A DNA stretch of 64,000 bases. Source: Trichoderma breve (Eukaryota > Ascomycota > Sordariomycetes > Hypocreales > Hypocreaceae). Under the pieces are notes generated by a model. That model was not told the DNA's origin. It searched no databases and worked only from the letters and a program-made list of their open reading frames with translations. The DNA lies in the NCBI RefSeq assembly GCF_028502605.1, contig NC_079236.1, positions 2,542,001 to 2,606,000 of the forward strand. The letters are read 5' to 3'. How positions within the stretch are numbered: the stretch's first letter is position 1; the number at the start of each line of letters is the position of its first letter. The position numbers were made by a program, and so were the translations under genes. This document shows, piece after piece, positions 36,357 through 62,397 of the stretch.

Positions 36357-36654
36357 TGTGTGATCCTGTGACAGTCAAAGTGGTGTATGAATTTTGAGTA
36401 TTACTTAAGAAGGAAATAGAATTAATTAATGGCTACAGTGCCTTTCGTCTATACAAGTTGCCAATTTCCACAAGTGATGCCGTTTCTAAAAACTAGACTC
36501 AAACTTCCTAGCGCCCGAATGATAACTCAGATTCGCTTGTTCCCGTTTTCCTGATTTTCCCGCCTCCTCGAGTTCTAGAACCACTTAGTGTTCGAATGAG
36601 CGAGATTTCCCCTGATTGCTCTGCCACACTCATAACTCCATCGCAACAAGGAAT

Positions 36655-38417
36655 CTAATCCTCCTCAGGGGAAGACATGTGACCAGATGCCAATGTGAGT
36701 TGGCACATGAGCGGCTTTTTCTCCCAAAGGACATAGGCATTTTGCTCATCCCAGTCCGAGGCGCCCTCCACACCGTCGCAAATTTCTATATTAAACTTGA
36801 ACAAGAGGCGAGCAAGGATGAGTTGCGTCTCCCGCATGGCCATGTTCTGACCCAAGCAGTCCCGAGGTCCGAAGGCAAAGGGGCGCCAGCACTCACGGTT
36901 GTCGCCGCTATAGACAGGGTCGTTGAGCCAGCGCTCAGGGACGAAGCTGTCAGGATCCCGGAAGTTATCGGGGTTACGGTAGGTAGCATAGTGGTGGACG
37001 GAGACACGAGTTCCACCGGGGACGGGGCCTCCAGGCATATTCATCCCTGATGCGTGGCTCGGCACCACTCTTGGAACTCCGACTGGCACCGGGGGATATA
37101 ACCGGAGTGCTTCCTTGATACCTTCCAAAAGGGTTAAGTACATGCATATGAATTCAATTGGATTTGTGAAGTGGCTACCGTGTCAGGTACTTACATGCGT
37201 TCAGATATACGAGTTCCGCGGCACTCTGGAAACTGATTTCCTCCTGAGACCGAAACTTTGCGCGTATCTCTCTCAGGAGTAAACCCAGCTTTTCTTCGTT
37301 TTTGAGCAGGTAATATGTCACACCGGAAAGTGTGGTGCCTATGAAATCAGAAATTAAATCCCTATACTTCTACAGCAACGGGTAATTGAAAAGTTCGGGG
37401 AAATACCAATTGTTTCACTGCCTGCTAACATGAAGACATCGCCGTGGCAGTGCATTTCCTCTAGAGTCAGTTGTTTGTCTAAATCTGCGTCAAGAACCAA
37501 GCTCCAGATATCTGCTTCGTCTGACCCTTTCTGGAGTCTCCTATCGACACGATCGGCAGAATGCTTGAAGTGGTTATACTTCATCTGCTTGATGGATTGT
37601 GGTTCCAATACGTTGAAAGCGAAATCCAGGATCCCGTAATATTGAATTATTTGTGCAATAGGAATGACCTTGATAGAGTCAAACACCGCTTCAACCCACT
37701 TTGAGTATCGGTTGCTTTGGAGGAGGCCGAGCGGTTCTCCAAAAGTGAGGTGCCCCATGATGTCGAACGCTGTGAATTGGTACAACTCAACCATGTTTAC
37801 ACTCTCACCATGGGCGGAAGTTTCATTCAATGAGGAAAGCAACTGATCGATATTCTTCTGGAAGATTGGCTCCTGTCGCTTCAGGGCTCGCTCCGAAAAC
37901 GCTGGTGCAAAAACCTGCCTGAAGCGACGGTGATCCTCATGTGCTGGTGCGCTGTTGATGCCATAGACACCTGGTGCGTTTTTGTTAACCCTGCTCAAGA
38001 TATCTTTCGCCTATTTGGAGCCTCACCATTATACGGCGCCACAAACCACTCTCTCGCCTTTGGGAATTCTCGGCCACCCCTTTCATGGCCATGGATTGCC
38101 CTCCAGGCGGCACCGCTGCCGTCCATGTAGCTCAATTCGTTTGGCCCATAGCGGACGACCGGGCCGTACTTGGAGTGGAGTTTTTGCATCCATTGCACCT
38201 GTCGTCCGGAGATAGCAGAGATCCAAAATGGAATACAACTCAAGGAGGTGTACCATGGACCCGGGAATCTTGACAAAGGGTGCAACGTCACTGAGTAGAT
38301 AGCAGACACGACCCAGTACAAAACACCGGAGAACGTGATGGCAATCAAGACATGGCTCGCTGAGACAGTGCCAAGTGCCGGGCTACTGTAAAGAGAAGAC
38401 AAGTCTAGCAAGGCCAT
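36655..38417 (-). CDS. Cytochrome P450 monooxygenase 2 (isotrichodermin C-15 hydroxylase-like)
   Basis: Exons on the minus strand are 38417-38027, 37970-37407, 37338-37195 and 37121-36655, giving 521 residues. The N-terminal membrane anchor (VLIAITFSGVLYWVVSAIYSV) is followed by HPLSRFPGPWYTSLS, a typical fungal P450 hinge. The I-helix AGSETIGTTLSG and the K-helix segment NACIKEALRLYPPVPVGVPR are each completed by splicing. PERW and the haem loop FAFGPRDCLGQNMA are intact. Overall pattern fits the CYP65-like group that includes trichothecene C-15 hydroxylases. The true substrate is unknown; adjacency to a terpene cyclase suggests a terpene. All three junctions restore the family frame. It is divergent from the cyclase, sharing a 719-bp promoter region. 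Confidence 0.92.
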
Positions 38418-39136
38418 GGTAGTGATAAGTATACTCGTATTGGCCTCAACTATACTCTACTGTGTACAGAATGGAATTCTAGAAAACTGTCTTGCAGGAC
38501 GACATTAATACTACTCTGCTACCGGCAGAATGGGATTCCATCATTCGCTTGTGGCAGCCAGCAGAAGGATGGTCGGGGCCATTTACTGCGACGTCCGCAC
38601 CCGGTAATTACAATTGCCGCGAATACCTTGCAGGGATCGCTATTTTCTGACAGGTACGGCGTAATACGGGGAGACGTTAAGCCCCCCCCCTATGTATGTA
38701 ACCTGCACTTGAGGGCGGGACACGAGATGTGGATAGACAAAAGAGATAGGGGAACGTTATCCGTATGTATGTCAGAATCCTTAAGAAATTTAGGGGGGCG
38801 GCACATGTAAGGTCAAGCGCGCAGAATGGACTCGGCCCAACAACCTGGTTTAAAAGCCGGAAGTGAGCCGTTACCTGTCAGACCGGCTAACTGCCCAAAC
38901 CGGGGTACCAATCCCGGCATCTGGGATGGCGTCTGGAGTCCGATTGCAGGGGTCTGAATTCGATGCCGGGTAGGAATACGCTGAAAGAAATGGATGGTTT
39001 ATAGGGTCTTGGTAGAAACAAAGTTACCTGTGCCTGACACTCAGATGAATATAAATATAAGTGTCTAGAACAACGAAAAGAAAAAAAACACAACTACAAC
39101 TTTTATCAACAACTTGCCACATTTCCACCAAGCACA
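38418..39136. promoter_or_regulatory. Bidirectional promoter between P450-2 and terpene cyclase
   Basis: A shared 719-bp upstream region. A TATA-like ATATAAATATAA lies at about 39,049-39,060, roughly 80 bp before the cyclase ATG. An inverted repeat CCGGG(8)CCCGG sits at 38,900-38,917, a layout compatible with a zinc-cluster regulator, though the binding protein is unknown. A C9-10 run lies near 38,682. Confidence 0.5.
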
Positions 39137-40482
39137 ATGCCAAACTCTCAACTACCGGAGACAACTTGTCAGAAGATCAGACTCCCAGCGCTTGAAGCGG
39201 GATGGAGATGGCCTAGACTTGTGAGCTCCTACTTGGAAGAAGTCGAAGAGGAGTGTTTGAAATGGTCGGCGAGTTTTACCGCCTTTGATCACGAAACACA
39301 ATGTCTTATTCATGAGAAAGGAAAACTCAGTTTGTCTCCCAATTCTGCGCCCTGACTGTCAATTGTGCTGTTCGAGCTAACCAAAGGAACCTGTGAAGAT
39401 CTCCTTGCGGGCATGTGCTATGCAAGAATGACGAAAGGTGAGACATGTCCTATTCTAAGTCTCCATTATTCGAATGATACTTACATGTTTCAAAACAGAG
39501 CAAATCAGGTCTGGATGCGAGCTTATGCACCTTTTCTTCATGTTCGACGAATACTCCGACAAGGCATCTCCCGAAGAAGTTCTTTATCAGGCCCAGGTCA
39601 TGATTGATACTCTCAAAAGTCCTGAGACGCCTCGACCGAAGGGGGAATGGATCGGAGGTGAAATAATACGACAGTAAGTGGCAAAGTCATATAGCTGCAG
39701 CGATCCCATGCTTAGAGCTTACTTATCAATTTAGATTCTTGCTTCACCTTCCTAGTACTGCTACCGAGACATTTCGGGCTAGATTCGGTGCGACTTGGAT
39801 ACAATATGTTCACTCTGTTGTCCAACAGGCTCAATTCAGATCAGAGTCACGTATCCTGGATTTGGAAGACTTTCTTGCTGTCAGACGCCATACCTCTGGC
39901 GCACCATCCACGATTGCCTTTTACGAAATGAACAGTGACATTCCGGATGATATCCGAGAACATCCTGTCATTCGTGAACTGGAAGTCTTGGCGGTGGACC
40001 TCATCGTTATTGCCAATGTGGGTACATGTAACCTTTCCAGATGATGAACACGCGTATGCGACGGTGTGTACCAGGGCTCTTACTGATTACGCATGTAGGA
40101 CATCCTATCATACAACAAGGAGCAGGCCATAGGAGACGACGAGCACAACATCGTTACCATCCTCATGAGCCAGTACAACCTTGATGTCCAACAAGGCATC
40201 GATATGGCAGGAGACCTGGCCGATGAGAAGATGGACAGGTTCTACTACCTGTACCCGCAAGTCCCACGATACGTAGGGCCTGTAGATTTGGAAGTCCAGA
40301 CCCTTGTGGATGGCATGGCTCAGTGCGTTAGTGGTGTATTCCATTGGAGCTATGAGAGTCAACGATATTTTGGGAAACGCGGGATGGAAATCAAGAGAAC
40401 CCGACAACTACGACTCTTGCCCAAGGTGAAGACGAATGACTTCGCAGGTACTGTACCTGTGAATGACGTCTTGATATTGTAA
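39137..40482 (+). CDS. Class I terpene cyclase (sesquiterpene synthase-like)
   Basis: Five exons, 39137-39329, 39387-39437, 39499-39673, 39735-40017 and 40099-40482, give 361 residues, the usual size of fungal single-domain terpene cyclases. The enzyme ionises a prenyl diphosphate (probably farnesyl diphosphate) and cyclises it. The aspartate-rich metal motif is FDEYSD, with Asp near residue 98. The NSE metal motif NDILSYNKE (about 234-242) is built exactly across the last intron. An RY pair (SQRYFG, about 324-325) lies near the C-terminus, as in many fungal cyclases. Intron 1 (39330-39386, GTTTGT donor) is the weakest junction; the others have good GT-AG signals. The product cannot be predicted. 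It pairs divergently with P450-2. Confidence 0.9.
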
Positions 40483-42020: not shown

Positions 42021-43773
42021 ATGTCAGCCAATCCACCCCCCAACAGATCCTACAGCCGCGATTCATACACGATTGCATGGATCAGCGCGCTGCCCCATGA
42101 ACAAACGGCAGCAATTGGCATGCTTGATAATCAGCATGCGCGGCCTCATGATTTCATTCAGCCTCCAAATGACAGCAATTCCTATTCCTGGGGCGACATT
42201 AACTCCTTTAACATAGTTATTGCTTCGCTTCCTGCTGGGGAATATGGAACTGCTTCCGCTGCTGGTACCGCCGTCACTACCTTATTGTCCTTCCCTCAAG
42301 TTCGATTTGGGCTCATGGTTGGTATCGGAGCCGGCGTCCCTAGACCAGGCAGAGACGTTCGTCTTGGTGATATTGTTGTGAGCCGTCCAGAGGGAACCAG
42401 CGGCGGCGTGGTTCAATATGACTTTGGCAAGGCCCTTCAGGGAGGAGAATTCCGACGTACCGGATTTCTAAATAGTCCTCCTAGGGTTCTTCGCAGTGCG
42501 GTCACTAACTTGCAAGCACGCCATGGTCTCCAAGAACCCCAAGTCCCCCAATACCTTGAACAAATGGTCAACAGGTTTCCCCGTCTTGGTCAACCAAACA
42601 ATGGTGGTCCGAGTTATACCTTCCAGGGACTTATGAATGACAGACTCTTCAACGCTACATACCCCCACGAGGGGGGCGACGATTGTTCAAATTGTGATCC
42701 AACACAACTGCAAAGACGTGTCAAGAGGGACTCAACTAACCCTGTGATTCATTATGGAGTTATTGCATCGGGAAATATGCTCATCAGAGATCCAAAAGTA
42801 CGCGCGGAAATGGTCCAACGGACAGGGGAAGACTGCATCTGTTTTGAGATGGAAGCAGCTGGATTAATGAACCAGTTCCCTTGCCTGGTTATCCGTGGCA
42901 TATGCGATTATGCAGACTCGCATAAAAACGATCAATGGCAGCGGTATGCGGCAGCAACAGCGGCAGCCTATACCAAAGAACTCATTGGGCTTCTTCCGGC
43001 CCAAGCTGTTGCGGAGACGGATACGGCCGCTGGTGTTGTGAACCCCGGACAAAATCCCACTCCCACTCCCACTCCCGTCCCAACTATCAACCCCAGTCCT
43101 GGACAGACCACTCCTGCACAGACCCCTAATCCCGGTCAGACACCAAGCAACGGCGATATTCGGCAATTGCGTGATGATGTTGCAGGGTTGTCTAGGCAAA
43201 TGAATACCGTCATCCAGATGCTCCAGTCCTCCCCGCCTGGTAATTCAGGTAGTGGATCCGGTGGTGCAGGCTCTTCTGGAGGAGCCTCTGGGGGAGCTTC
43301 TGGAGGAAATGCTCCTGGAGAAGTTACTTCTGGAGGACCGGGGGGCACGGTAAGTTTATGCATTCATTGATAGTGGCCGCTTGACTGATGTGTTATAATA
43401 GCATATTTCCGGAAATAGATGGTACGGTTTTGCTTTGGCAGAACAAGTGGAAGCGGCTCAAAGAAGAAATCCTGACAGGTTTAGAGACGACCTCGTCAAG
43501 GCCATTACGTTTATTGGCGATACCGTTTTTAACTGGAGAGCGGATCAGAACAGTCAGGTGGCTCAGTTTTTCTCGACTCATAGTATCCGGCTGCGTTTTT
43601 CTGCGGATGAGCCGGGGACTACGGATGATCCTCTTAAGGGGCTTCCAATAAGCTCTCCGAGGCGGCTTGAGTTTGTTTGTCGGAGCTACAGGTTTTTCGG
43701 TGGTATGAATGAGCATTTTTGCAGGGTGTTTACCCTTTGGCGTATTGCTGTTGAGTTTATGGGGATGGAGTAG
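42021..43773 (+). CDS. PNP_UDP-domain protein with unrecognised C-terminal domain
   Basis: Exons 42021-43349 and 43402-43773 give 566 residues. Residues about 15-320 form a nucleoside-phosphorylase-like (PNP_UDP) domain of the kind found at the N-terminus of fungal NLR/STAND proteins: YTIAWISALPHEQTAA, LMVGIGAGVP, RLGDIVVSRP, a CSNCD knuckle before VIHYGVIASGN, CFEMEAAGLMNQFPCLVIRG and CDYADSHKNDQWQ. A Pro/Thr-rich linker with short repeats, a possible coiled coil (RQLRDDVAGLSRQMNTVIQML) and a Gly/Ser-rich linker follow. The final ~120 residues (from NRWYGFALAEQVEAAQRR) form a folded-looking domain I cannot assign. There is no NB-ARC, NACHT, ankyrin, TPR or WD region. Enzymatic nucleosidase activity is plausible since the EMEA and D-x-x-D-S-H-K motifs are intact. 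Confidence 0.82.
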
Positions 43774-44533
43774 CGAAGAGGTACAATTCCTCATCGGAGC
43801 ATTTGTAGCATTACTACTGAGGAGAAGTATATACACAAATTGAATCGTCAAACAGATTGCCTGAAATGCATGAGCATTGCCAAGCTATTAAACAGATTGT
43901 TGTAAACAGCCCAATGCAGACTTACCGCCACCTTTCAATCTTGGGCGATGGCTTCTCCAACAGGGGGGCCGCGAGAACATGGAGCCAAAGTATTCATGTG
44001 TGCTACGCTCACATATAACCACCAACTGTCAACACACAGAATGGATGAGAAGCTCGATAGCACTGGCTCCAAAGTAGAAACTTTCTTCGTGCAAGGCGGT
44101 CGAATGAAATAAGACGAATAACAGGATGACAAGAAATGGGTGAGCCAGCTCTACAATATACTGCAGATCAGAAATAATGAAAACGCCTTAAAACGAACAT
44201 ATGTGCTTCCTAAAGTTATATCAACAGAATACTGATGAGAAATGAGCATTTAAAAGCTATTTCAAGGGGCAATTGGGGAAGAAATGTCGGCATATTCAAG
44301 AACAAGTCAGGAAATCATTTCCTCAAGCTACTGCGGCCAAGTCTAGCTTGAAATAAAGCTTCAAAAGTACTTAGGAGTAGATTTAAGGCGTAAAATTGTC
44401 TCGAAGTTTCTATATAAATCGAGGAGATGAACTTCCTCGACATTAAAAGCCTGAGCTAGCCTTGTCTCAGTCACTAAATCGGACTCTCAATCTATCATGG
44501 GGTTCGTCAAAAAGCTCCCGCAAATAAATCAAG
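43774..44533. other. Convergent intergenic region, no gene seen
   Basis: About 760 bp, AT-rich, between the 3' ends of the PNP-domain gene (+) and the small secreted protein gene (-). Only short ORFs lie here, without features. Confidence 0.45.
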
Positions 44534-44939
44534 TCATGGCAGCATAAATTTATTAGGACAGGAAAGTCTCCAGCCCCGAGGAGTTCCATAGAGCTCATAA
44601 CACGACGAATCGCCTGGGGGAATGATTAAGGGACACCAGTCTCCGTGCTCAATCCAAATCAGAACTGATAGATGAAATTTTAGAACATTTCTTCTCCACT
44701 CAAAAACGTAGAATGGATTTTTGGCTTGGAAACTTACGGTCACACTCAAGAGAATAAGACTTGACGGATGCAAAATTAGAAGAGACCGTGTGGTACGTGA
44801 TTAGGTCGGGAATAATCACCCCCTCCCTTCCCTCACTACACTGCGTATCCGTGAATGTATCAAATGAGCCGAGATTTTGGCTATAGATGCCAGTAGCACA
44901 AGCAATTGAAAGGAAGGCTGCGGCAGAAAAGGTGCGCAT
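44534..44939 (-). CDS. Small secreted cysteine-rich protein
   Basis: Two exons, 44939-44738 and 44664-44534, with a 73-bp GTAAGT...CAG intron, give 110 residues. MRTFSAAAFLSIACATGIYS is a good signal peptide. The mature part of about 90 residues has five Cys (after TDTQ, SLE, GDW, GDSS and WRLS), giving an effector-like or antimicrobial-like small protein. The reading frame ends on both sides of the intron only fit when it is removed, and the second exon continues the Cys-rich pattern. I do not recognise the family. Candidate roles, by analogy only, are interaction with a host, a plant or a competing microbe. An in-frame upstream ATG at 45035 would put a non-signal extension ahead of the signal peptide. 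Confidence 0.62.
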
Positions 44940-46670
44940 TTTGGCGGTTAATCTGTGTTTTATTCTTGACTGGTAAAGGTAAATAGTCAATAAGTTAGGT
45001 TGTCTGAATAGCTTATTCGTGGTAGCTTGAAACAAAATGTGCAGGAAGCTTCACCCTCTATTTATAGTTTTCAGCTTCCCATATACAACACCAATGGATA
45101 GAGTTGGTCTACCGGTAGTAGTAATATAAATATTTTCACAGTTACTGCTGATCATATTGTCCGACGTATGACGATGTTCTTAGACCTATGGGTAACCGTA
45201 CTTACCATCTCAAGACAAGTTGTCACACGCATCTTAGAGTCACACAGTTCGTCGAGCAGTTTCCATTGGCTTTCGGTGGTATCTTAGTAAAGAATCCACG
45301 GCTAATAGCATAGATTGGATTAGAAGATGTTATATGAGTAACCAGATATGTAAAATGTAAGCCTACGTAATCCAGCTATCCGTCCTCTTGATCTAGGAGC
45401 AATAGAGAGTCTATGATGTGGATGAAGGAATTACATAACACGGTGGGTTTTGTTTGACGCTGTCGTCTTATTCTCGAAACAATACGTTCTCCGTATTAAG
45501 AGAACGGCCTTGGGCCATGCAAAGAATAGAAGGCATTGGACTCGTGCAAGCGGAGGTAAGAAAGGGCCAGACCGCAAAATAAATACGTGTATACAGTCAG
45601 TAATATAAGCACCTCACTAACTCGTAGAACACCTATTCAGCCAGCAACTAAACTTTATTATGTAAGTATATTAGCAGTAAACAGAAAAACGTAGATATAG
45701 TAGCAGTTACTAGAAAAACGTAGATATGGTAGCAGGTATTAGATAGATATAAATAAAATAGCATTTACTGGAGAAATATAGATATAATAGGGAAATGTAG
45801 ATATAGCAGCAGTTATTACCTGGAAATATAAATTTAGCAGTTATTCCTTTTATAGGCGTGTAGTATAACTTGTGGGTGTTTGAAATCTTCCCAGTCTCGG
45901 TTTTTCTGTCCTCCGCTTGTCGCAAAATAGTTGAATGGAGCTTCTAATTTTTCCTTTACTGGTCGTATGTGATGGGGTATTCAGCATATCCGCTCTATAA
46001 TAATAAGACCTAGGGAAACATCAATGGAAGTAACGAAATAAAAGCAATAAGAAACCCCCGACCTTTTCGCCTAGATAGGATTATGGCTATCCACAGCCAG
46101 GGTCGTAAATAGTATAACAGCTTCAAAATAGAAACGGCAACTGATGTTCGCTAGTGGAAGCTAGAAGAATCTAGGAGTAGTCAACTCACTTGGGACGCTT
46201 CTGCTTCATCCACATAGCTCGCCTCAATGATAAAACAGATTGTTACCAACATGCCTTCTGGCATAGCGAGATTATAAAACCAACTTGGACGAACATTTCA
46301 CTTGAACACAGGCTTTCTTCAAAAGAATAGAATGGATGGGAAACAAAGTCATAGCATAGATCAAGGTTCTCTACTCTGTAACATCTGGGAGGAGTTTTGT
46401 TTCAGCCATGGAAGTCAGCGAGAGTCAGTAAAAAATATAGTATCATTATCATGGGTCGGGCTTATATCGTATTAGCGAAGTCCCATCTCACATGCATATG
46501 CATGCGTGGAGATTTACTGTCCGTGGACCAATCAAGGCCCCTAATACTCCGTGCCGCATTTTGAACTCCTCAACAGTTCACTCTCGCTGAATTGTATCAT
46601 TCGCCTGCTTGTCTTCCTTTACTGCTGAAACTACTGCATTTATTGTGCTCTTCGTGAATTTGTTAAGGCC
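44940..46670. other. AT-rich intergenic region with minisatellite
   Basis: About 1.7 kb of AT-rich DNA upstream of both the small secreted protein gene (-) and the NACHT-WD40 gene (+). No gene is seen. It contains the 29-bp repeat array listed separately. Confidence 0.5.
45673..45849. repeat. Degenerate 29-bp tandem repeat (minisatellite)
   Basis: Units beginning AGCAGT.A or AGCA.TTA and ending ATAT.GT or ATA.AAT recur every 29 bp at 45673, 45702, 45731 and 45760. A shortened 19-bp unit follows at 45789, then a 28-bp unit at 45808 and a partial unit at 45836. The first two units differ at only four positions; later ones are more diverged. This indicates old tandem expansion. Confidence 0.85.
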
Positions 46671-49600
46671 ATGGGATTGTCAAAAATTTTCAGGAGTCGC
46701 AGTCGTCGTCGGAATGATGATACTCTCAGTTCCGCAAGCGACGCCCAGCCAGAGCAGACAACACTGCTGCCTAGCAAAACAGAGTCTCTAGACGCCGGCA
46801 CTCTCTCTGACCCATCACTTATCATCCATCAACAGACTTTGCGCCCAAAGACAACTTCATCCACAGGACCACAGATCACTGTGACATCTGCCGAAGGCCC
46901 TGCTGGAATTCTTCCCAGCCGACAAATACTCCCATCAGACGCGTCCTCTACCCCCACGATTCTATCCCCCGCATCCTCTGGGCTGTCGGTTACGAGACCA
47001 TCGTTATGGGATCGCGCTTACGATTCTCTCCGAAAAGCGGATGAGCGGTTGGTAGATCGATATGAGCAGCTACTCTCGAAAGAACTGAACTATAGTAATA
47101 GTACGTCTATTCAACAGCCGTGTTTGGTTCATATCAGCTTACATGTGCAACATGTGCCGGAAATGGTATATCGCAGAATACGTCAATTCTGGATGAGGAT
47201 CTGAATAACACAACGAGTATGATCTCTACCGACTCCAATGAACGCCAGAAACAATTGGAGGATATTACGAAACGCGGATTGCAACGCGCAGACGAAAAGC
47301 AGACAAGGTATATGCTGTTCGGTCGCCAATTCATTCTCAAGGACCAAGTCGCGGAAGCTGCAAAATTCGTCCAAAATATCAAGACCCTTATTGATGAGTC
47401 TGTGAAAGCATCACCTGAGGCGTCCCTTGCATGGGCTGGCGTCTGTATCCTCCTACCCGTCCTGACAAGCTCAAGTGCTGCAGAAGAGGCGAGTCGAGAT
47501 GGTTTTATATACGTTACTTCTCGTATACGTTACTACATGGAATTCGAACATCTCCTATGGCCAGACTCTTTACATGCCTCAAATATGAAAGATAATTTCG
47601 AGACTCAAATTATTGATCTTTACCAGCACATACTCGAATTCCAGATCAAGAATGTTTTGCGCTTCTATCGAAACTGGCTTGCCAACGTGGGGCGTGATAT
47701 CTCTGGGTCTGATGACTGGAAAGAAATGCTTACGGTAATTAAAGATTTAGAACTCACTATGATAAGGGACTGGAGCAACTTAAATACTGTGGCATCACGG
47801 AAAGCCCTAGAAGCTATTGATGAAGCTACGCAACAGAGTTGTACCGATATACAATCGCTTTTGTCAATCGCGAGACAACACATTCAAGTCTCTACAGAGC
47901 ATCTCGACATTTCATCTAAGCATCTCAAGATACACGAGCGCACAAAGTATGTTAAAGAGTTAATAATACTCAATATGTACTAACCACAAATCAGTCAATT
48001 ACTCGAAGACCACCCAATAGATCTTCCTACCGTCAGCCAAGCACGATATGACAGTGCTGATGTTCAAGATAGCCCAAAATGCGAAAGTGGTACTAGAGTA
48101 AATATCCAAGAAACAATCATTCAATGGGCAAACAAGGATTCTGCCGAAACTCTGTTCTGGCTCTCAGGCCCTGCAGGTACTGGTAAATCTACGATTGCGC
48201 GAACCATTGCAGACGTCCTGAATAGTGAAGATCGACTGGTTGCTGGATATTTCTTCAAAAGGGGACAGCAAGGCCGCAACGGCACCGCTCGCTTATTTTC
48301 CACTATTGCAATGCAGATGATCGAAAAGATACCTTCTATGAGAGAATACCTCCGAAGATCTCTCTCTGGCTTGGACAAGGACGCAATAGAGGGGATGGCC
48401 CTTGAATTTCAGTTCAAAAAGCTAATTCTAAGCCCTCTCGCAGACCTTCCTCCTGATAACATGCCCCGCCTAGCTAGCGTTATCATCCTCGATGCCTTAG
48501 ATGAGTGCGAGAATGAAGATCACTTATCGAGGATTATCACGCTATTTCTCCAGCTTCAGACCTTGCGTACAATACGCTTGCGCGTGCTGCTCACAAGCAG
48601 ATCATCTCCTGAGATCCGAGATGCCTTCATGGACCTTCAGAAGGACAGGGACTTTTGCAACATTGAGCTCCTCGATGGGAGATTCTCCGCTGAAACTAAG
48701 TCAGACATCCAAACCTTCTTGGAGAATAATTTCGCAGACATCAGAAAGAAACGCAGAGTTCAGCAAAACCCTTGGCCCACGCAAGAAGAACTAGACCGCC
48801 TAGTGGAATTAGCTACGACTCCTGAACCCTTGTTCATTTATGCCGCCACTCTCTGTCGATTTGTTCATGGTGAACGGCGCCCCAAGAATCCGAAAGAGCA
48901 GTTACGGATATGGCTCAAACAGTGTGATGATCGTCAGTCGCAGCTTCATCAGATTTACGAACCCATTCTTAATCAGGTCTTTTCTGGTCTAGAGCCAGCA
49001 GAATTTGACAGCCGGTTGGAATTCCTTGGGTCTCTTGTCCTTCTAGTGGATCCGATGCCGGCTGCATCACTCGCTGCTCTTCTCCAGATGGATATAGATG
49101 ACGTTGTCTGGTGGCTCCCGGAGTTACACGCAGTGTTGAATATCCCTGCTGAGGACCATATTCCCGTGCGGCTACTACATAAATCGTTCAGCGACTTCAT
49201 TCTCAGCACGGAACGGCCTGGAAATAGCATATATTCTATAGACACTGCAAGCACTCACACCACGCTAGCCACAAAGTGTCTTGGTCATATGAATGCAACG
49301 CTTAAACGGGATATTTGCAATATTAAACAGCTAGGCAAGCGCAGAAAGGACATTGATCAGCATATCGTGGATAGACATATCACTCCCGACCTTAAGTATG
49401 CCTGCCTTTATTGGATATATCACCTACAACACGGTGAACAGCGAATGAATAGTGAAATACCCACGTTAATATATAAACACTTGCTTCACTGGGCAGAAGT
49501 CCTTGCAATCCTGGGAAGGTTATCCGACGCAGCCATGGCCATTAGGAGGCTTCTAGAGATATTTCAGGTAAGCGGGCCTCTTAGTGTATCATTGCCGAGC

Positions 49601-51982
49601 TAACTCTCGCAGCGTTTGCCCGATGTACCTGCAGAGCTTGTTCTTTTCACAACAGATGCAAGCAGATTCATCTCTAGTTTCGGGTCAATCATCGATCGAG
49701 CACCTCTACAAATCTATGCTGCCTCCTTGATGTTTTCTCCGACATCGAGTAAGGTGCGGCAAAACTTCTGGAATGAATGCCTCGTGGATATTGACAGTAT
49801 CCAAGGGGTGAAGTCTGATTGGGATGTACAATGGCAGACTCTCGAAGGCCATAGCGAAGACGTCACAGCATTTGCTTTCTCGCCTGACAGCCAGACCTGG
49901 GCAGCCGCATCAGAAGACGGCATGATCCGGCTCTGGGACGTAGCAACGGGAACACACAGACAGACTCTTATAGGTCACAGCAAAAGAGTCACAGAAATAT
50001 TCTTTTCGCCCGATGGCAGGTTAATAACTACGGCGTCAAACGATCATACAATCCGGCTCTGGGATGCAACAACTGGCTCTCTCCAACAAACACTTGTGGG
50101 CGAAGGCAGTCTTTTTACAGAAGTCAAGATGGAAGACGATGAACTACCTCGGATCGATGCAGTTGTCTTTTCGCCTGATGGGCATCTAGCAGCGTCAATA
50201 TTAACAAATAATACAATCCGGATCTGGGATACCAGAACTGGCGCCTATCAGCAAACACTTAAAGACTATAATGGCCTAGTTACAGCAGTCAAATTTTCAT
50301 CTAACAACCGACTCATTGCATTATTGTTAAATGACGATTCAGTCCAACTCTGGGATATTGAAGGTATATGTCTGCAAACAATTAAATATAATATCCATTC
50401 GAGCAATGCTGTTGTTTTTTCCCCTAATAGCCAGTTAATAACATCGTCAGTAGACGATGGTACATTCTACCTCTGGGAGGTAGTAACGGGCAGTTATGAC
50501 AAGGTGCTTAAAGACCACGATGCTTGGGCTAGCACGGCTTCTTTCTCACCAAACGGCGAGCTAGTAGCATATGTAACAGACGGTGGCACTGTCCGGCTCT
50601 GGAATGTCACAAAGGGCACACATCAACAAGAATTAAAGCTCCCTCAAGAAATGACAACGCACGTTGTCTTCTCGCCCAACGGTCAGCTAGTTGCGGCGAC
50701 AGGCCATGATATAATCTGTGTCTGGGACACAGTAACAGGAGTATGCCATCAGACTCTGAAGGGGCATAGTGCCACTATCACTGGTATCATTTTCTCGCCT
50801 AACAATCTTCTAATGGCATCCATATCTCATGATGAAACAGTCCGACTTTGGGATATAACAAGGAGTACCCGCCAGCAGGCACTTGAGGGCCACAAAGACT
50901 GGATTACAGCTGTTAGCATCTCACCGAATGCCCAAATAATAGCGTCAGCATCTGTCGATGGTACATTACAGCTCTGGGATGCAACAACTGGGGCATTTCG
51001 ACAGACATTAGATGGCCATGGCGATATAGTTAGTGAGGTTATCTTTTCGTATGATAGCCGGCAGCTGGTCTCACTATCTATAGATCAGATTCGAATATGG
51101 GATGCAGTAACAGGTGTGCATCAACATGCGCTTCAGGGCCATAGTGAGTCAATGTGGACAATGGTTGTCTCACCTCATGACAAGCTAGCTACGCGGGGGT
51201 TTGGCGATGATAATACAATCCAGCTCTGGGATATAGTAACGGGTACTCACCAGCTGGCACTTGAGGGCCATAGCAAGCCAATTACGGAAGCCGTCTTCTC
51301 ACCTGATGGCCGGCTGCTGGCGTCAGCATCAAATGATGAAACAGTTCGAGTCTGGGATACATTGACTGGCACGCACCAACAACTCCTTAAAAGCAACGGC
51401 ACTTTTGTGCTAAGTATTGCTTTCTCGCCTAAAAGCCAACTAGCTGCCTTGGGATTTCGTAATAGCACAGTTCAGCTTTGGGACCTAGCGACAGGCACAC
51501 ATCAGCAGACTTTTGAGGGCTACACTGAGTCCATTATAGCGATTGCCTTCTCCCCTGATGGTCAAGTAATAGCCTCGGCATTGGATGATGGAACAGTCTG
51601 TTTCTGTGATACAACAACGGGCAAAATTCGGCAAACCCTTAAGACTGGTGAAGTTCGCAGCTTGCGATACGACCCAGCTTCTAAAATGCGCTTGTATACA
51701 GATGTCGGAACCTTGGTCATGAATCGAACTTCTATGGAAGAGATAGCAGATATTCAGGGGTTAACACCAAATCTGGTCTTTAATGGTCTTAGTTTCAGTC
51801 CAGATAAGGAATGGATAAGGATCGGCTTCGAGGATCATGTATGGCTTCCTTCAGATTATCGGCAATCGGCATTTGGAATCAACACATCGATCATTAGAGG
51901 TTGGATGGTTTTTATTGGTTGTCAATCGAGAGAAATTCTACGATTAAGAATTAGGCAACCTGAACAAGCGCCAACTTGTTGA
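46671..51982 (+). CDS. NACHT-WD40 (NWD) STAND protein, NLR-like
   Basis: A large protein of about 1,720 residues of the HET-E/NWD type. Tentative exons are 46671-47126, 47177-47946, 47995-49567 and 49613-51982; the last two junctions are clean (TACTAAC branch point, GTAAGC...CAG), the first is uncertain. Residues about 105-400 match the N-terminal helical region of fungal NWD proteins (SLWDRAYDSLRKADERLVDRYEQLL, GLQRADEKQTRYMLFGRQF, YQHILEFQIKNVLRFYRNWL). The NACHT domain has Walker A GPAGTGKST (about 467-475) and Walker B VIILDALDEC (about 571-580). From about residue 1,010 I count 14 WD40 repeats, enough for two seven-blade propellers, with individually diverged blades. Such proteins act as ligand-triggered switches in fungal non-self recognition and cell death; that role is inferred here. 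Confidence 0.88.
47101..47217 (+). other. Unresolved exon 1-exon 2 junction of the NWD gene
   Basis: The strong-looking donor GTACGT at 47101 is in phase 1, but the best acceptors (AG at 47176 and 47197) open the correct downstream frame only in phase 0. The one phase-matching option I find is GTTCAT at 47127 with TCGCAG at 47176, a 50-bp intron with a weak donor. A frameshift mutation or a missed mini-exon is the alternative. Confidence 0.6.
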
Positions 51983-53309
51983 CTAATTCTTTCATAGAGA
52001 CTAGCTAGAAAGACGTCCTCTATGCAGCCTCGCTCCAAACATCTGAGAAGAGCACATATACACCTTATGTCGTAAATAGCAAAACTTGAGACTGAATAAA
52101 GAATTGCTTTAATTTTTGATCAAGGATATTTAGTAGAAGACTTTACATCGGTTCTTGTGCAGACCTGAGATTAGGTTCTCTTAATGTTTGGCTTAGATAG
52201 TAATCGTGTGTATAAAACAGCGTGTCTGCATATGTTTAAAAGGAAGACAGTGACATCTAAACTCAAGAAAACTCCTTGACGGGACCCCGAATTCTCCACT
52301 GCCAATGGTCGGATGTGCCTGATATCGCGATGTGACCAATCCATGATGCTTCCGTGAGATCATGTCAAATATGATACAAGCTCTTCACCTTATTCTCTCC
52401 CTGCTTGAACCTGTTACCTAGCAGTAACCACTAAACATTGCGTGTTAATGTTGTACACAGTTCTTGTTGCCGTGGTTCCCAGTAACTTGGAATGCAATTG
52501 ATGTGCTTCCACATGTTCCATATGACGTTGCCAGCTTACATGCATAATCTAATTGGCCAATTCTTCCCAAGTCTTCCTGCATCGACGCCTCATTGTGGAG
52601 ATATCTACCTATAAATGGACCATCTACTCCAAAGGAGGTTGTCACTGATAGAAGCCACGAACTATTTTTTTTCCTGCCGCGTGACGCTGTACAATAAAAA
52701 GTGTCCAGCACATCACCGAAGAGCTGCATGATGCGCTGCCATTTCCGGCCATCCGAGCCGCTATCGGCTATCACCCAACAATTCGATTTGACAGCATAAT
52801 GAGGCTGATAGATTAATGCTGTTATTCCTCTTGGTCCACGTATTCGCTCCAAGAGGCTGCATGCGTGGTGCGCTCTGATATGTCGTCCAGACATTGGGTA
52901 GCCAGGCATAATATTGGCATAATATTGGCATTTGGGATAATGGCAGCTGGAAGTTTGTTGTTCAACCCGTAAATAATGTAGCGCCAAAAACGGTGCCAAC
53001 GTGGTGATGTTGTCAAACCTGGATTTGCGTCTGAATGGCGCCTAGTTTGTGTGTTTCTGAGGGGGGATGGTGTCGGGTGCTGGATCTAGTAGTGGGATAA
53101 TGAGTGTGCGGCTCTGTTGGCTGCCGATAGCTTCATGTAAACATGTAAATATCCGCATCTTCTCTCTCAGGCCCTTGAGCCGTCTTTTCTAGGAATACTT
53201 ATAGAGTAAGAGTTGTCCTCTATTCGGAACTCGATTTTACTTTGAGTCAGAATTATATGTCATCATTTAAAACAATCCCCATCGCCATTGAGCGCAGACA
53301 TCCGTCATT
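51983..53309. other. Intergenic region with an unassigned 184-codon ORF
   Basis: About 1.3 kb between the NWD gene and the second PNP-domain gene, both plus-strand. It must hold the promoter of the latter. The minus-strand ORF at 52445-52999 is listed separately. A short direct repeat (CATAATATTGG twice) lies near 52,908-52,929. Confidence 0.45.
52445..52999 (-). CDS. Hypothetical protein, 184 codons
   Basis: An uninterrupted frame of 184 codons with several Cys residues in its C-terminal half (NCWVIADSG, TFYCTA, DYACKLATSYGTCGS, KNCVQH). It has no signal peptide at the first Met, no recognisable domain and no obvious splice-linked partner. The length and Cys spacing are slightly unusual for random sequence in this AT-rich area, but it could be non-coding or one exon of a gene whose first exon I failed to find. 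Confidence 0.25.
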   Translation of the reverse strand: MAPFLALHYLRVEQQTSSCHYPKCQYYANIMPGYPMSGRHIRAHHACSLLERIRGPRGITALIYQPHYAVKSNCWVIADSGSDGRKWQRIMQLFGDVLDTFYCTASRGRKKNSSWLLSVTTSFGVDGPFIGRYLHNEASMQEDLGRIGQLDYACKLATSYGTCGSTSIAFQVTGNHGNKNCVQH

Positions 53310-55927
53310 ATGGAGGACTTCCGTCTACGACACACTCACAATGATTACACTATCGGATGGGTTTGTGCGTTACCAAACGAACAGACCGCTGCGATTCTCA
53401 TGCTTGATGACAGGCATGAGGACCTCCCCAACCCAACAGGTGACCACAATACATATATGCTCGGAAGCATTGGTAAACACAATGTTGTTATTGCTGGTCT
53501 GCCCTTAGGTAGGGTTGGCAATAACACTGCGGCAACAGTTGCAACTAGAATGGTGTCCAGCTTTCCAAATATCCGAGTCGGGTTAATGGTAGGGGTAGGC
53601 GGAGGTATCCCTCACAAAACTCGGCTTGGAGATGTGGTTATTAGCTGCCCTAATGGTACGGAGCCTGGCGTTGTCCAGTGGGACATGGGCAAGACAGAGG
53701 CCGGCCAGTTCGTACGAACGGGATCTCTGGCTCCTCCGCCAACAGCTTTACTTACAGCATTGACAAGATTTAAAGCTGATCACATCACAACACGAAAAAA
53801 CATGCTCAAGTATTTAAAGAAGCTGGAAAAAGATCCCGATGTACCTGAAAGCTACAAAAAATCGGACTCTCTCCAAGACCTCCTGTTTCATCCAAGCTAC
53901 GGCCATGTAGAAGCAGATGAGTCTTGTCTGAGTGATGAAGATGAGGACGATTGTCGCCGGTGCGATAAGAGCAAGTTGGTTCGGAGAAGCAAAAGAGAGA
54001 GCGGCTTGATACACTGCGGCTTGATTGCATCAGGCAACCAAGTTATCAAAGACGCTAATCTCCGAGACTCGCTGTCCAAGCAATTTAAGAACGAAATCCT
54101 TTGTATCGAGATGGAAGCAGCAGGACTGATGAATGACTTCCCTTGCGTTGTTATTCGAGGGATTGCTGATTATTCAGACTCGCATAAGAACGAGAAATGG
54201 CAAGACTACGCCGCTGCAACGGCTGCAGCATGTGCAAAGGCATTACTCATGGTGGTGGCTACGAGCGAGGTGGATAAGCTTCAGCGAGTACAACGTAAGT
54301 TTACTCTTTATTACAATAAGGCAGTTCTCAGCTAATAATCTCTAACAAGTCACAATCTCGCCTACACTTATACAAAGTGCGATGCACTATTGGCCGTTTT
54401 GGAAAAATGAGAAGAAGGATACCGCCGATCCAAGAGGTATGTGCAGCGATCTACTTATGCCCCCATTTCATAGATCTTTAACTAACATGCATAGTAGTGA
54501 CAGCTTTTGAAGATTCCAATCTTGAAACTGATCCTCGGCGCCCGCCGCTTGAAATGGCCCAACTAGATGACACAAGCCGTAATGCGAAGTCGGGGGAAAC
54601 AACTCCCGAAGAAGAGAAACCCCCAAAAATGGTTGCCATTGAAGCGCCAAAACGAGCAAGCTCTTATGATACTTCTCCGACGCATCAAACGCTTGAATCG
54701 TGGTTACAAGGAGCCCCGCCGTTTCTAGCAGCGAAGTTTCGACAGGGGAGTATCGATGATGCAATGAGAGACATCCGCATGGGCCTCGGCCAATCGCCGG
54801 TTCCCCGAGAAGATGAAAATCGAACTGAGATGTTATCACCTGAGCGAACATATAGTATGCCCTCCCAAGCCTCCATGCCGTTTCCAGAAGAGTCCAAGGG
54901 CATTACGTCCGAAAGGAATGACAAACCCGGTAACATAAGACGCCATTCAAACCCTGTTCCATCTGCCAAAACTCCCTCGGATTGCTCGCCAGAGCTTAGA
55001 GTCCGTGGGCATGAGCAGAGCCAAACGAACAATGATGACAATGCTCGATCAAAGCCCCAAAGCCCATCGAGATCGATTAAATATCGTTTTGGAACTCCAT
55101 CGCCTGTCCGGAGAGAGCAAGAAAGACTTGTTTCCGAGCAGAATCACGGGCAATTTAACAATGCGCCAGCCTCTTCAGGCTTGTACATATCAACGAAACG
55201 CCCAAACAGCGGATACGACGCCAATGGAAGGGCTATAGAGTACCCGTTGTCGCCTCCTCAATCACCGCAGTCTACAAACCTAAGTAGCTACATGAGAAGA
55301 GACAGCGGGTCGCTAAATGATGACGAGGAAATCCCATCAGGATATGATTCATTTAGTGAAAACAATGACATCCTTCGGGAAAATCTCCCTTTCGTCGAAG
55401 AGCCAGACCAGATCAACTCTAACGAAGGACAAGGCGGCGCTCCTCTCAGCCAAAGCCTTCAGCGTTCTTCTATTGCTGCTGAGAAAACACCAGCACATGG
55501 TTCACGTACCGGGAGTAACGATATAGCCCCAAGATACAGGAGCACATACTCTCGCCATCCAGGGGCAAGCGTAGCCAGCCCCGGCGAATTACGGCGCAGT
55601 GCCACTCCTATTCCAAGTCCACCGCCTCCTTATTTGGACAGGAAGAACTCAACATCACGTCAACCCATTAGAAATAGCCATCGTGGCCCAGGATACAGCC
55701 GACCTCCAGGACCAAATACGCCCAACCCCAGTGACAGACAACGCAGCGCCACTCCTACTCCCTCTCAAAGCAGACGGCCTCCTCTCATGACTATGGACAA
55801 CAACAGCGTACCAGCATTGGGGACTAAGACTTCCCAGACTCGCTCCCAGATCAAATCGAAGACGCCAAATAAAGTTCAGTCAAATGCCACTCCTTCCAGA
55901 TTACCACGACTGCGTCCAGCGGCATGA
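53310..55927 (+). CDS. PNP_UDP-domain protein with long low-complexity tail
   Basis: Exons 53310-54294, 54350-54436 and 54495-55927 give 834 residues. Residues about 12-320 are a PNP_UDP domain of the fungal NLR type: YTIGWVCALPNEQTAA, LMVGVGGGIP, RLGDVVISCP, CRRCD then LIHCGLIASGN, CIEMEAAGLMNDFPCVVIRG and ADYSDSHKNEKWQ. It is clearly related to the domain at 42,021, with the same motif order. After a short helix-like exon (SAMHYWPFWKNEKKD) comes about 475 residues rich in Ser, Pro, Arg and Asn, with repeated RRSATPIPSPPPP / RQRSATPTPSQSR-like segments, probably disordered. One small block (TLESWLQGAPPFLAAKFRQG) looks structured. No nucleotide-binding or repeat sensor domain is present. Introns are 55 and 58 bp with good signals. 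Confidence 0.82.
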
Positions 55928-59934: not shown

Positions 59935-62397
59935 TCAACTAGCGGGCACAGCCGCAAGCAAGCTCCATAGATGGTCGTTGGTCCCGTTGTCCTGGAACTG
60001 GACGACGTTGGCGCTATTAGCCGTGGACTCGCCATCAACTCCAACCACCAGCCCGCTATTCTTATTCTTTATCAAATATAGCCCGTCACTGTTTGACTGC
60101 ACTCGCCAAAGCTGGTTGTCTGTTCCATCTTCTTGCAACTGCTGAAGACGCGCACTGTTGGACGTTGACTGGCCTTCGACGGCCAGCAGGAGCCCGCTGT
60201 TGAGGTTCTGGATCTTGTACCAGCCTCCAGGCGCCTTGACAAACTGCCACAAATGATCCCGGGTGCCGTTGTCTTCATATTGCTGAATGTAGGCGCCCCT
60301 GGTCTTGGACGCGTTCTGGACGCCCATGAGCTTGCCGCTGTTCAGATTATTGATCTGAAAGACAGCTGCAGTCCACACCTCGAACTCGGAGAGACCCCAA
60401 CCTGATCCGCCGCCCGGGTTGGGGGCCACGACACGAAGTTGCGAGGTGGTGATTGTCGGGAAGGTGATCTGAGTCAGTGTGTTTGACACCGAGGAGGCTG
60501 TGCTCCGCTGCTGGCCGGGGACTGTGACCCAGGTGCTACCAGAGAGATACTGGAGATCATAGCTCGAGGGCAGCTTCACGCCGCCGCCGTCGGTGTAGAA
60601 ATACAGCCGGACGTTAGAAACTGCCTGCGACCTTCGGAGATCCACGCCGAAATAGTCCTGAGCGTTGGGGCTCTGGTATGAAGTCCAGCGGCTGTTCTGG
60701 GGCACGGCATTGCGAAACACGATGCCGTCGACGGCCCTCCAGACATCGTCGTACTGCGAGGTGTAGGATGCGAATGGTGTTGACCCTGATGAGAACTTCT
60801 GGGTGTTGGCGGCGATGTTGACCTGAGAGTTGATGGTTTGGATAACTGCACTGCCGACGTTGACAGTGAGCAAGCCGATAGTAGAACGAGTGCCAGCGAG
60901 GGTGCCGTCAACAAAAACCCTTAAACCAGAACCCTGGTTGTAACGCGAACCAGACTTGTCCCAGATGACTGTTACTTGATGTCCGTGGTACTCAACATTC
61001 TCCAGCGCAAAGTAGTCCCATGAGGACGGCACGAGAGGATCGACAGTCAGAGTATCATTGGATTGTCCGCGTAGGCCAAGGAGTCCGGCGATGACATTGT
61101 CAATGAAAGTGGAATGATTGTAGTCTTCACTATGGTTATAAGTGTCGTACATCCACTGGTTGGCGTCGGGATCATGAGCTTCGGCCACGTAAGGGATGCC
61201 ATTCTTATATTGGGTTGCGGCGTAACCAACAAGAAGGTTATAGTAATCGGTCGATGTAATGTATGACTGCGCGGGATAATCATGGAGCACATTTTCCACA
61301 GCGGTGAGGACTTGCGCGGTGGCATATGGCCATGATGGACCATCCCATTGAAGGCAGTTTGCGCCTTGATACATATACCATTGGCTTCGTCGTTCCGTAG
61401 TGGTAGGTCCGTACGTAGCCGCAAAGCCCTGAGAATCCTTCAGCTGGGAGAAGGCGGCGATGCCAGACGCTTGTGGCATGTCGAACATCCACGGAAAGTA
61501 ACCCATAATCTCACGAGTGGTGAGCAGTGCTCCCGAGGGGTTGTTGTCCCGTTGCCGGTGCATGAAGAACTGACGCGAGCTGTCCCAGAGAGTATTCTGC
61601 ATTGCCGTCTGCAGAGCGCTGGCTCGGCTTGTATACTCAGAAGCCAAGGCCGTATCTCCCTTCAAAGTGGCCAAAGATGCGATAGCACGAGCGTCTCCAT
61701 ACTGATATCCGTTAATGGTAGGCCTATAGCCAGCACCACCGTGGTAAGGATCGCTGGTCTGATAGGATGCTGCTGTGCATTCGCTGGCATCCCAGACAGG
61801 GACTTGCCAGTAAAGCCCGAGGCTCTGGTTGAAGTGATTGTCCCAACCTCTGTATTGTTTGACAAGATTATCTAACTGACCGATGGCGAAATCCCGATCC
61901 CCAGTTACAAGATAATGGCGCCACACGGCGGTGGCTACCCAGAAGCTGTATTCGTGGGCCCAATCAGAGGTGTCGAGATTGTAAGTATCAGTTTGCGGTT
62001 TAGGGAACGTGCCAGGGCCAGCCAACCAGTAATTAATATTATCTTTAACGTATCTCTGATCCCGAAGCCATCGACCCTCGATGATGTGATGTCCTGCAGC
62101 GGCTACGACGCCTCCGTACGGCGCACCATAAGAGACTGGCGTTAGAAACTCGCTGAGCATGTAGCCATACTGGACACCGGTGTAGGTGAGATGCTCCTTG
62201 TAAGTCTGCCAACGGTAGTAGTAGACGGCTTGTATCTGTGAGTTGGGAACATCAAGGAATGGGATGTTCTGCTCGAACCAGTTGGGGTCTTCAAATCCGG
62301 AAAGCAACTGGCTATGATTCAAGAAATTGGTGGCTACGGAACGTCCCGAGAGGACAATGGCAGCAACACCAAAGACGGAAATGCTAAGGGTCTTCAT
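59935..62397 (-). CDS. Secreted multimodular glycoside hydrolase with F5/8-type-C and ricin-B modules
   Basis: Single exon of 820 residues. MKTLSISVFGVAAIVLSGRSVA is a signal peptide. Residues about 25-520 resemble an (alpha/alpha)6-barrel glycosidase of the trehalase/GH63/MGH1-like superfamily (EGRWLRDQRYVKDNINYWL, DTSDWAHEYSFWVATAVWRHYL, YQGANCLQWDGPSWPYATAQVL, EDYNHSTFIDNVIAGLLGL). Residues about 545-680 look like a discoidin/F5-8-C carbohydrate-binding module (WRAVDGIVF, YDLQYLSGSTWVTVPGQ, QLRVVAPNPGGGSGWGLSEFEVW). Residues about 685-815 hold three ricin-B beta-trefoil repeats (LNSGKLMGV, LNSGLLLAVEG, KNSGLVVGVDG, each ending in a DHLW or NQLW motif). The substrate is unknown; a plant or fungal cell-wall polysaccharide is likely. 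Lack of introns and the bacterial-style module set leave horizontal transfer possible. Confidence 0.85.
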   Translation of the reverse strand: MKTLSISVFGVAAIVLSGRSVATNFLNHSQLLSGFEDPNWFEQNIPFLDVPNSQIQAVYYYRWQTYKEHLTYTGVQYGYMLSEFLTPVSYGAPYGGVVAAAGHHIIEGRWLRDQRYVKDNINYWLAGPGTFPKPQTDTYNLDTSDWAHEYSFWVATAVWRHYLVTGDRDFAIGQLDNLVKQYRGWDNHFNQSLGLYWQVPVWDASECTAASYQTSDPYHGGAGYRPTINGYQYGDARAIASLATLKGDTALASEYTSRASALQTAMQNTLWDSSRQFFMHRQRDNNPSGALLTTREIMGYFPWMFDMPQASGIAAFSQLKDSQGFAATYGPTTTERRSQWYMYQGANCLQWDGPSWPYATAQVLTAVENVLHDYPAQSYITSTDYYNLLVGYAATQYKNGIPYVAEAHDPDANQWMYDTYNHSEDYNHSTFIDNVIAGLLGLRGQSNDTLTVDPLVPSSWDYFALENVEYHGHQVTVIWDKSGSRYNQGSGLRVFVDGTLAGTRSTIGLLTVNVGSAVIQTINSQVNIAANTQKFSSGSTPFASYTSQYDDVWRAVDGIVFRNAVPQNSRWTSYQSPNAQDYFGVDLRRSQAVSNVRLYFYTDGGGVKLPSSYDLQYLSGSTWVTVPGQQRSTASSVSNTLTQITFPTITTSQLRVVAPNPGGGSGWGLSEFEVWTAAVFQINNLNSGKLMGVQNASKTRGAYIQQYEDNGTRDHLWQFVKAPGGWYKIQNLNSGLLLAVEGQSTSNSARLQQLQEDGTDNQLWRVQSNSDGLYLIKNKNSGLVVGVDGESTANSANVVQFQDNGTNDHLWSLLAAVPAS

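Follow-up and report, generated by a model that had tools for sequence, protein, structure and literature searches.

Does an immune receptor gene flanked by two nucleoside phosphorylase-like genes encode one split system, or do three genes of separate function share a neighbourhood? We investigated this question in a window of Trichoderma breve DNA (C5 2542001-2606000, 64,000 nucleotides in full length), and searched the genome to which it belongs (38.5 Mb, 9 contigs). The window carries three intact-looking genes in the order PNP1, NWD and PNP2, all on the plus strand, of which NWD encodes a NACHT-WD40 protein of the NOD-like receptor (NLR) kind and the other two encode phosphorylase-superfamily (PNP) proteins. 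We consider it rather probable that this is an immune-type gene neighbourhood with three separately functioning proteins, namely a complete NLR and two PNPs that lack the switch. Their co-location, kept by shared descent, most likely reflects that NLR, PNP and HET genes tend in general to cluster, while a dedicated partnership of the PNPs with NWD is possible.

Pfam matches confirmed the description given in an earlier note on this DNA, that two PNP proteins without a nucleotide-binding (NB) domain flank a NACHT-WD40 protein in the same orientation. PNP1 and PNP2 both exceeded the curated cut-off of PF01048 (PNP_UDP_1; E 6.6e-07 and 2.2e-10, respectively), the only family to do so in either protein, and no NB domain match was found in them. 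NWD matched PF17100 (NACHT_N, E 3.1e-67), PF24883 (an NPHP3_N-type NACHT, E 5.8e-29) and PF00400 in 13 stretches, with 14 WD40 repeats counted, and contains no PNP domain. It has the N-terminal domain, the NACHT domain and the C-terminal repeats of a tripartite fungal NLR, and its sequence includes GPAGTGKST and VIILDALDE, which we take to be the Walker motifs. NWD is a complete NLR, not a naked switch, and carries its own N-terminal domain. The WD40 region was less conserved than NACHT_N and NACHT in 12 of the 12 relatives compared, and the identities across 10 Trichoderma relatives were 75-94% for WD40, 90-98% for NACHT and 87-98% for NACHT_N, a pattern that would be expected of a sensor. 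In the sections of the papers on which we draw here and below, NACHT_N is classed as Goodbye-like and related to MLKL/HeLo bundles, with its function left open (PMC9815663, 2022), and Goodbye-like domains are listed among the pore-forming ones (PMC12258605).

Both PNPs retain MEAA and the D of DY[AS]D, and align with bacterial 5'-methylthioadenosine/S-adenosylhomocysteine (MTA/SAH) nucleosidases. The MEA and D..D residues are presumably the catalytic Glu and Asp. Alignment to solved MTA/SAH nucleosidases gave E 2.3e-07 for PNP2 and a weak match for PNP1 (best E 0.011), and we infer that both are nucleosidase-type proteins with their catalytic motifs kept, probably active as enzymes. Furthermore, the PADLOC profile of a PN-superfamily effector matched PNP1 at E 2.1e-17 and PNP2 at E 7.1e-18, and PDC-M60C matched PNP2 at E 2.5e-19. 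The PADLOC matches (PDLC00759, PDC-M60C) fell between E 2.5e-19 and 6.1e-17, and these anti-phage PNP effector profiles scored 60-67 bits, compared with 29 and 41 bits for PF01048 in PNP1 and PNP2. The effectors behind the shared profile match are bacterial.

The gene models are as follows. PNP1 (42021..43773, plus strand; exons 42021-43349 and 43402-43773; 566 aa) rests on prediction together with full-length relatives, in which the second exon is likewise found. Its PNP domain (residues ~1-328) gives way to a linker rich in Pro/Thr, after which come a short coiled-coil-like segment, a segment rich in Gly and a ~120-aa C-terminal part. NWD (46671..51982, plus strand; ~1722 aa) comprises exons 46671-47126 (donor uncertain), 47177-47946, 47995-49567 and 49613-51982, the third intron (49568-49612) taking out a stop that separates the NACHT open reading frame (ORF) from the WD40 ORF. 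An N-terminus that is probably disordered precedes NACHT_N (111-350), NACHT (~448-611) and the 14 WD40 repeats (~1003-1625). Since intron 1 has a weak donor and the first exon differs between the models of relatives, which start at different places, the extreme N-terminus as given is tentative; both halves of NACHT_N were nevertheless detected in the DNA. PNP2 (53310..55927, plus strand; exons 53310-54294, 54350-54436 and 54495-55927; 834 aa) has two short introns (54295-54349 and 54437-54494) that connect the PNP ORF to a proline-rich ORF ending at 55927. Its PNP domain (~1-322) is followed by a long proline-rich tail, probably disordered, with one more conserved helix-like motif at ~417-460. 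The three-exon model is supported by full-length proteins of T. breve, T. simmonsii and T. harzianum, and the same three frames occur in the proteins of relatives; the T. breve protein P0121 equals PNP2 in the three parts compared and is 18 residues shorter, as if an extra intron had been called. The PNP2 tail (54495-55927) shows a frame change and an early end in the models of T. sp. SZMC 28011 (P0124), T. camerunense (P0125) and T. virens (P0134), and may be polymorphic or dispensable, unless those three models are wrong.

From these features we propose how the three proteins could work. In NWD, the WD40 repeats would sense a ligand, the NACHT domain would switch and oligomerise, and the protein's own NACHT_N domain (Goodbye-like, helical) would carry the output. 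PNP1 and PNP2 would be nucleosidase-type proteins, belonging to a kind that is mostly joined to an NB domain in this genome, with other modules in place of the switch: the coiled-coil-like stretch and C-terminal part in PNP1, and the disordered tail in PNP2. They would probably cleave a purine nucleoside or nucleotide once the tails gather copies or partners. What was observed are the gene structures, domains and catalytic motifs, the placement among fused PNP-NLRs and the linkage in near relatives; all of the activities and activation steps are extrapolated.

The locus was compared with the known systems that it resembles. A split PNP/STAND arrangement had been put forward in the earlier note as new, which no longer holds, since PNP_UDP effector genes adjoining NACHT or NACHT-WD40 NLR genes, linked by PUASM, an HRAM-like motif and a rarer motif, were published in 2022 (PMC9815663). 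Like those PUASM pairs, as the cited sections describe them, the window has a free-standing PNP_UDP gene beside a NACHT-WD40 NLR gene in Pezizomycotina; unlike them, its NLR has NACHT_N, and two PNP genes flank one NLR (PMC9815663). The adjacency that marks the two-gene system is found here, with a small minus-strand ORF between PNP1 and NWD. As for the PUASM motif itself (FxGxGxQxxGxGxF), the best stretches agreed at 3/7 fixed positions in the PNP1 tail and 2/7 in the PNP2 tail, neither of which exceeded the shuffled mean. The best in NWD residues 1-180 was 2/7, with a shuffled mean of 2.0, and no stretch of the six-frame window translation reached 6/7. For the other PNP-linked amyloid motifs (HRAM-like NLR12 and PF01048_015), the scan covered two simple patterns, a G-x-Q-x-G-like one and G.[VI][VIL].G[ND], and neither occurred. 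We thus rejected filing the locus as a PUASM system: the genes are adjacent, but the PUASM motif is absent and the NLR brings an N-terminal domain of its own.

The fused fungal PNP_UDP-NACHT-repeat NLRs, as far as the cited sections describe them (PMC4986451, 2014), have a homologous PNP domain, and PNP2 nests among the fused genes of its own genome; unlike these, PNP1 and PNP2 have neither an NB domain nor sensor repeats. NWD, with PF17100, PF24883 and WD40, resembles the Goodbye-like NACHT_N-NACHT-WD40 fungal NLRs, and 20 other NACHT_N loci are present in the genome. The nwd2/het-S pair of Podospora likewise combines an NLR with an adjacent, separate effector gene, but according to the sections cited that effector is of the HeLo type and is reached by amyloid templating (PMC10197012), whereas the window encodes nucleosidase-type proteins and has no PUASM motif. 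Our literature search found amyloid-linked PNP/NLR pairs, and no amyloid-free split case.

To place the neighbourhood within the genome, we merged the PNP matches into 70 loci and counted a locus as NB-linked when an NB domain followed it on the same strand at a distance of no more than 2.5 kb. Such a domain was found for 41 of the 70, in 36 cases at 130-336 bp, read as fused genes, and PNP and NB are therefore usually linked in this genome. The solo set consisted of 25 loci, each 300 bp or longer, that lack an NB domain directly downstream, some of them being parts of other fusions. Eleven of these lay within 10 kb of an NB gene, compared with 1.9 expected at random positions (maximum 7 in 2000 draws); the corresponding control counts were 7/87 for cytochrome P450 loci and 21/103 for HET loci, and 6/152 NB loci had another NB locus at 3-10 kb. 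With the window genes left out, the comparison of solo PNPs with HET gave 9/23 (p 0.055), and at 20 kb it gave 13/25 versus 36/103 (p 0.09). The proximity of PNP to NB genes is real, yet close to that of HET, another incompatibility-type family. Among the 21 NACHT_N loci in our own grouping, NWD alone is less than 14 kb from a PNP locus; for the next of them this distance is 14.8 kb. Elsewhere, at C8:641502-644163, a solo PNP on the minus strand and an NB gene on the plus strand are divergent and 1.1 kb apart, and are perhaps a better candidate than the window for a co-regulated PNP/NLR pair.

The descent of the PNPs was followed in a tree of 60 rows, drawn from PNP domains of the T. breve genome only, a broken PNP1-like copy being left out. 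The label fused or solo switched 16 times on this tree (at least 13 changes being forced by well-supported branches) and is not significantly clustered, since the shuffled mean was ~17.5; the 16 changes would fit detachment or fusion having happened repeatedly. PNP2 and its solo sister C2:4304 (support 100/100) fall inside a clade of 11 PNPs (99/99), the remaining nine of which are all NB-fused. This sister has a disordered tail and, as judged by eye, ankyrin-like repeats, and no NB gene lies within 38 kb of it. The sister of PNP1 is also solo (C4:2542, support 98/92), with its nearest NB gene at least 29 kb away. A helix-like motif is common to the PNP2-type tails when they are aligned behind the PNP domain, and is too weak for a genome search. 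By eye, a P-loop ATPase-like ORF start (L027:4570-4941) was also noticed on the same strand as the PNP-ankyrin-like sister of PNP2, ~1.4 kb downstream of it. Short PNP1-like fragments on C2 (53% and 76% identity) are more than 220 kb from any NB gene.

Relatives were taken from lists of 90% clusters, that for NWD holding the best 120 of 131. Full-length relatives of PNP1 among the matches listed came from T. cf. simile (94%), T. aggressivum (87%) and T. velutinum (84%), the C-terminus being included in this conservation, and T. chlorosporum gave a partial match (79% over 72%). For PNP2, T. simmonsii (84%) and T. harzianum (86%) supplied full-length relatives among the matches listed; those from T. 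evansii, T. asperelloides and T. austrokoningii, at 48-50%, carry a tail of the same type. NWD, within its best 120 of 131, had ten Trichoderma relatives at 69-97%, followed by score by Colletotrichum at 49%. No NWD orthologue of T. evansii, T. asperelloides, T. austrokoningii, T. viride or T. virens was among the matches listed, which is suggestive of the absence of NWD but not proof; PNP2 relatives do occur in species that have no NWD orthologue among those matches.

Linkage was indeed found outside T. breve. PNP1 and NWD correspond to Triagg1_4658 and Triagg1_4659 of T. aggressivum, on contigs of the same size (787086), and PNP2 and NWD to THAR02_10328 and THAR02_10329 of T. harzianum, again on contigs of one size (20425). 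In T. lentiforme the single model CFAM422_011483 runs from PNP1 into NWD, and in T. harzianum CBS 226.95 the single model M431DRAFT_19801 runs from the terpene synthase through PNP1 into NWD. NWD and PNP2 of T. camerunense are likewise on contigs of the same size (928044). All three genes together were seen in none of these, and PNP1 and NWD are apparently unlinked in T. velutinum (contigs of 1360598 and 737571) and T. cf. simile (tags 009138 and 001042), where contig breaks could be the cause. Because these species are close, the shared order mainly reflects shared descent, not joint function.

The alternative of most interest is a dedicated multi-component system, in which NWD would serve as sensor and switch, and PNP1 and/or PNP2 as separate nucleosidase effectors recruited via their tails by a non-amyloid contact. 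Several observations speak for it and thus weigh against a mere tendency to cluster. Published adjacent PNP and NLR genes, as the cited sections of PMC9815663 describe them, make a functional pairing likely, and the PNP1-NWD or PNP2-NWD adjacency, with order and orientation, recurs in four other Trichoderma assemblies, all close relatives. An NB gene within 10 kb is commoner for solo PNPs than for the P450 control (11/25 versus 7/87, p 0.0001; 9/23 without the window genes, p 0.0008) and, with the window genes counted, than for HET loci (11/25 versus 21/103, p 0.017). The broken PNP1-like copy (C3:2376086-2376463; pieces 63-85% identical, with internal stops) is 6.4 kb from an NB gene. The catalytic motifs kept in both NB-less PNPs would fit as well. 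However, the PUASM pattern is absent from all three proteins, and in the six-frame genome search each PNP tail matched its own gene only, so that no NLR N-terminus shares it. The N-terminus of NWD matched three other places of the genome only, overlapping or near NACHT_N matches, and NWD already has an N-terminal domain of its own. Furthermore, the intact sister PNPs are far from NB genes, and PNP1 and NWD appear unlinked in the two species named above. We therefore regard such a system as a tentative proposal, less probable than not by a clear distance. Its most specific form is more doubtful still: PNP1 and PNP2 would be dedicated detached effectors of NWD, working through lineage-specific tails (the coiled-coil-like and C-terminal parts of PNP1, and the LESWLxxAP helix-like motif of PNP2) and without amyloid templating, so that one NLR with its own output would control two extra enzymatic ones.

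Two other explanations were weighed. Decay of fused PNP-NLRs, with PNP1 and PNP2 as the fragments left, would agree with the nesting of PNP2 among fused PNP-NB proteins and with the interrupted tails of P0124, P0125 and P0134, but it is very improbable: T. simmonsii and T. harzianum retain PNP2 in full length at 84-86%, three more species retain it at ~50% with the same type of tail, PNP1 is kept at 84-94% to its C-terminus in three, and in the genome searches neither the interval from PNP1 to NWD nor the sequence directly downstream of PNP2 gave an NB match. Truncation of the neighbouring NLR was ruled out, as NWD has no PNP domain and both PNPs have conserved tails of their own. A role in housekeeping nucleoside metabolism or in the neighbouring terpene cluster, and not in immunity, is suggested by the terpene synthase and two P450 genes just upstream and by PF01048 being a general phosphorylase superfamily. 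We hold this to be quite improbable as well, given that the nearest relatives in the genome include NB-fused PNPs, that the anti-phage profiles outscore PF01048 (60-67 versus 29-41 bits), and that 70 PNP loci would seem to exceed metabolic need. The split-system reading with which the earlier note began has thus kept part of its ground: the genes are linked elsewhere and are not truncations, but the arrangement is not new, shows no PUASM, and has intact sister PNPs 29 and 38 kb from NB genes. The reading we prefer is still that of a complete NLR and two switch-less PNPs functioning separately.

The remaining genes of the neighbourhood are described here. A gene for a small secreted protein had been proposed between the three; an ORF (44700..45035) does lie between PNP1 and NWD, with a start (ATG at 44939) that looks like a signal peptide by eye, but it runs on the minus strand, matches no Pfam family at E 0.01, and is probably unrelated to PNP1, NWD and PNP2. 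Directly upstream of PNP1 are C-terminal exons of a terpene synthase (39739..40482, plus strand; PF19086, E 1.6e-18 for 39739-40044), of which the exon at 40165-40482 matched no family; the residues of both exons are contained in P0232 of T. harzianum CBS 226.95, which continues into PNP1 and NWD. Together with two P450 genes and a fungal rhodopsin-like gene, this terpene synthase occupies 32105-40482, probably a terpene biosynthetic cluster. At 59935-62397, the minus strand encodes an MGH1-like glycoside hydrolase (820 aa) with ricin-type lectin and F5/8-type domains. A second NACHT_N-NACHT gene (C5:2623464-2624842) lies ~34 kb downstream of NWD, inside the 40 kb applied to NLR clusters in the cited sections of PMC12258605.

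If the three proteins do cooperate, the locus would represent an amyloid-free split of a fungal NLR from an enzymatic effector. The comparison with P450 and HET loci provides a baseline for assessing such neighbourhoods. Even if there is no partnership, the switch-less PNPs are conserved Trichoderma genes, with 25 solo loci beside 41 NB-linked ones.

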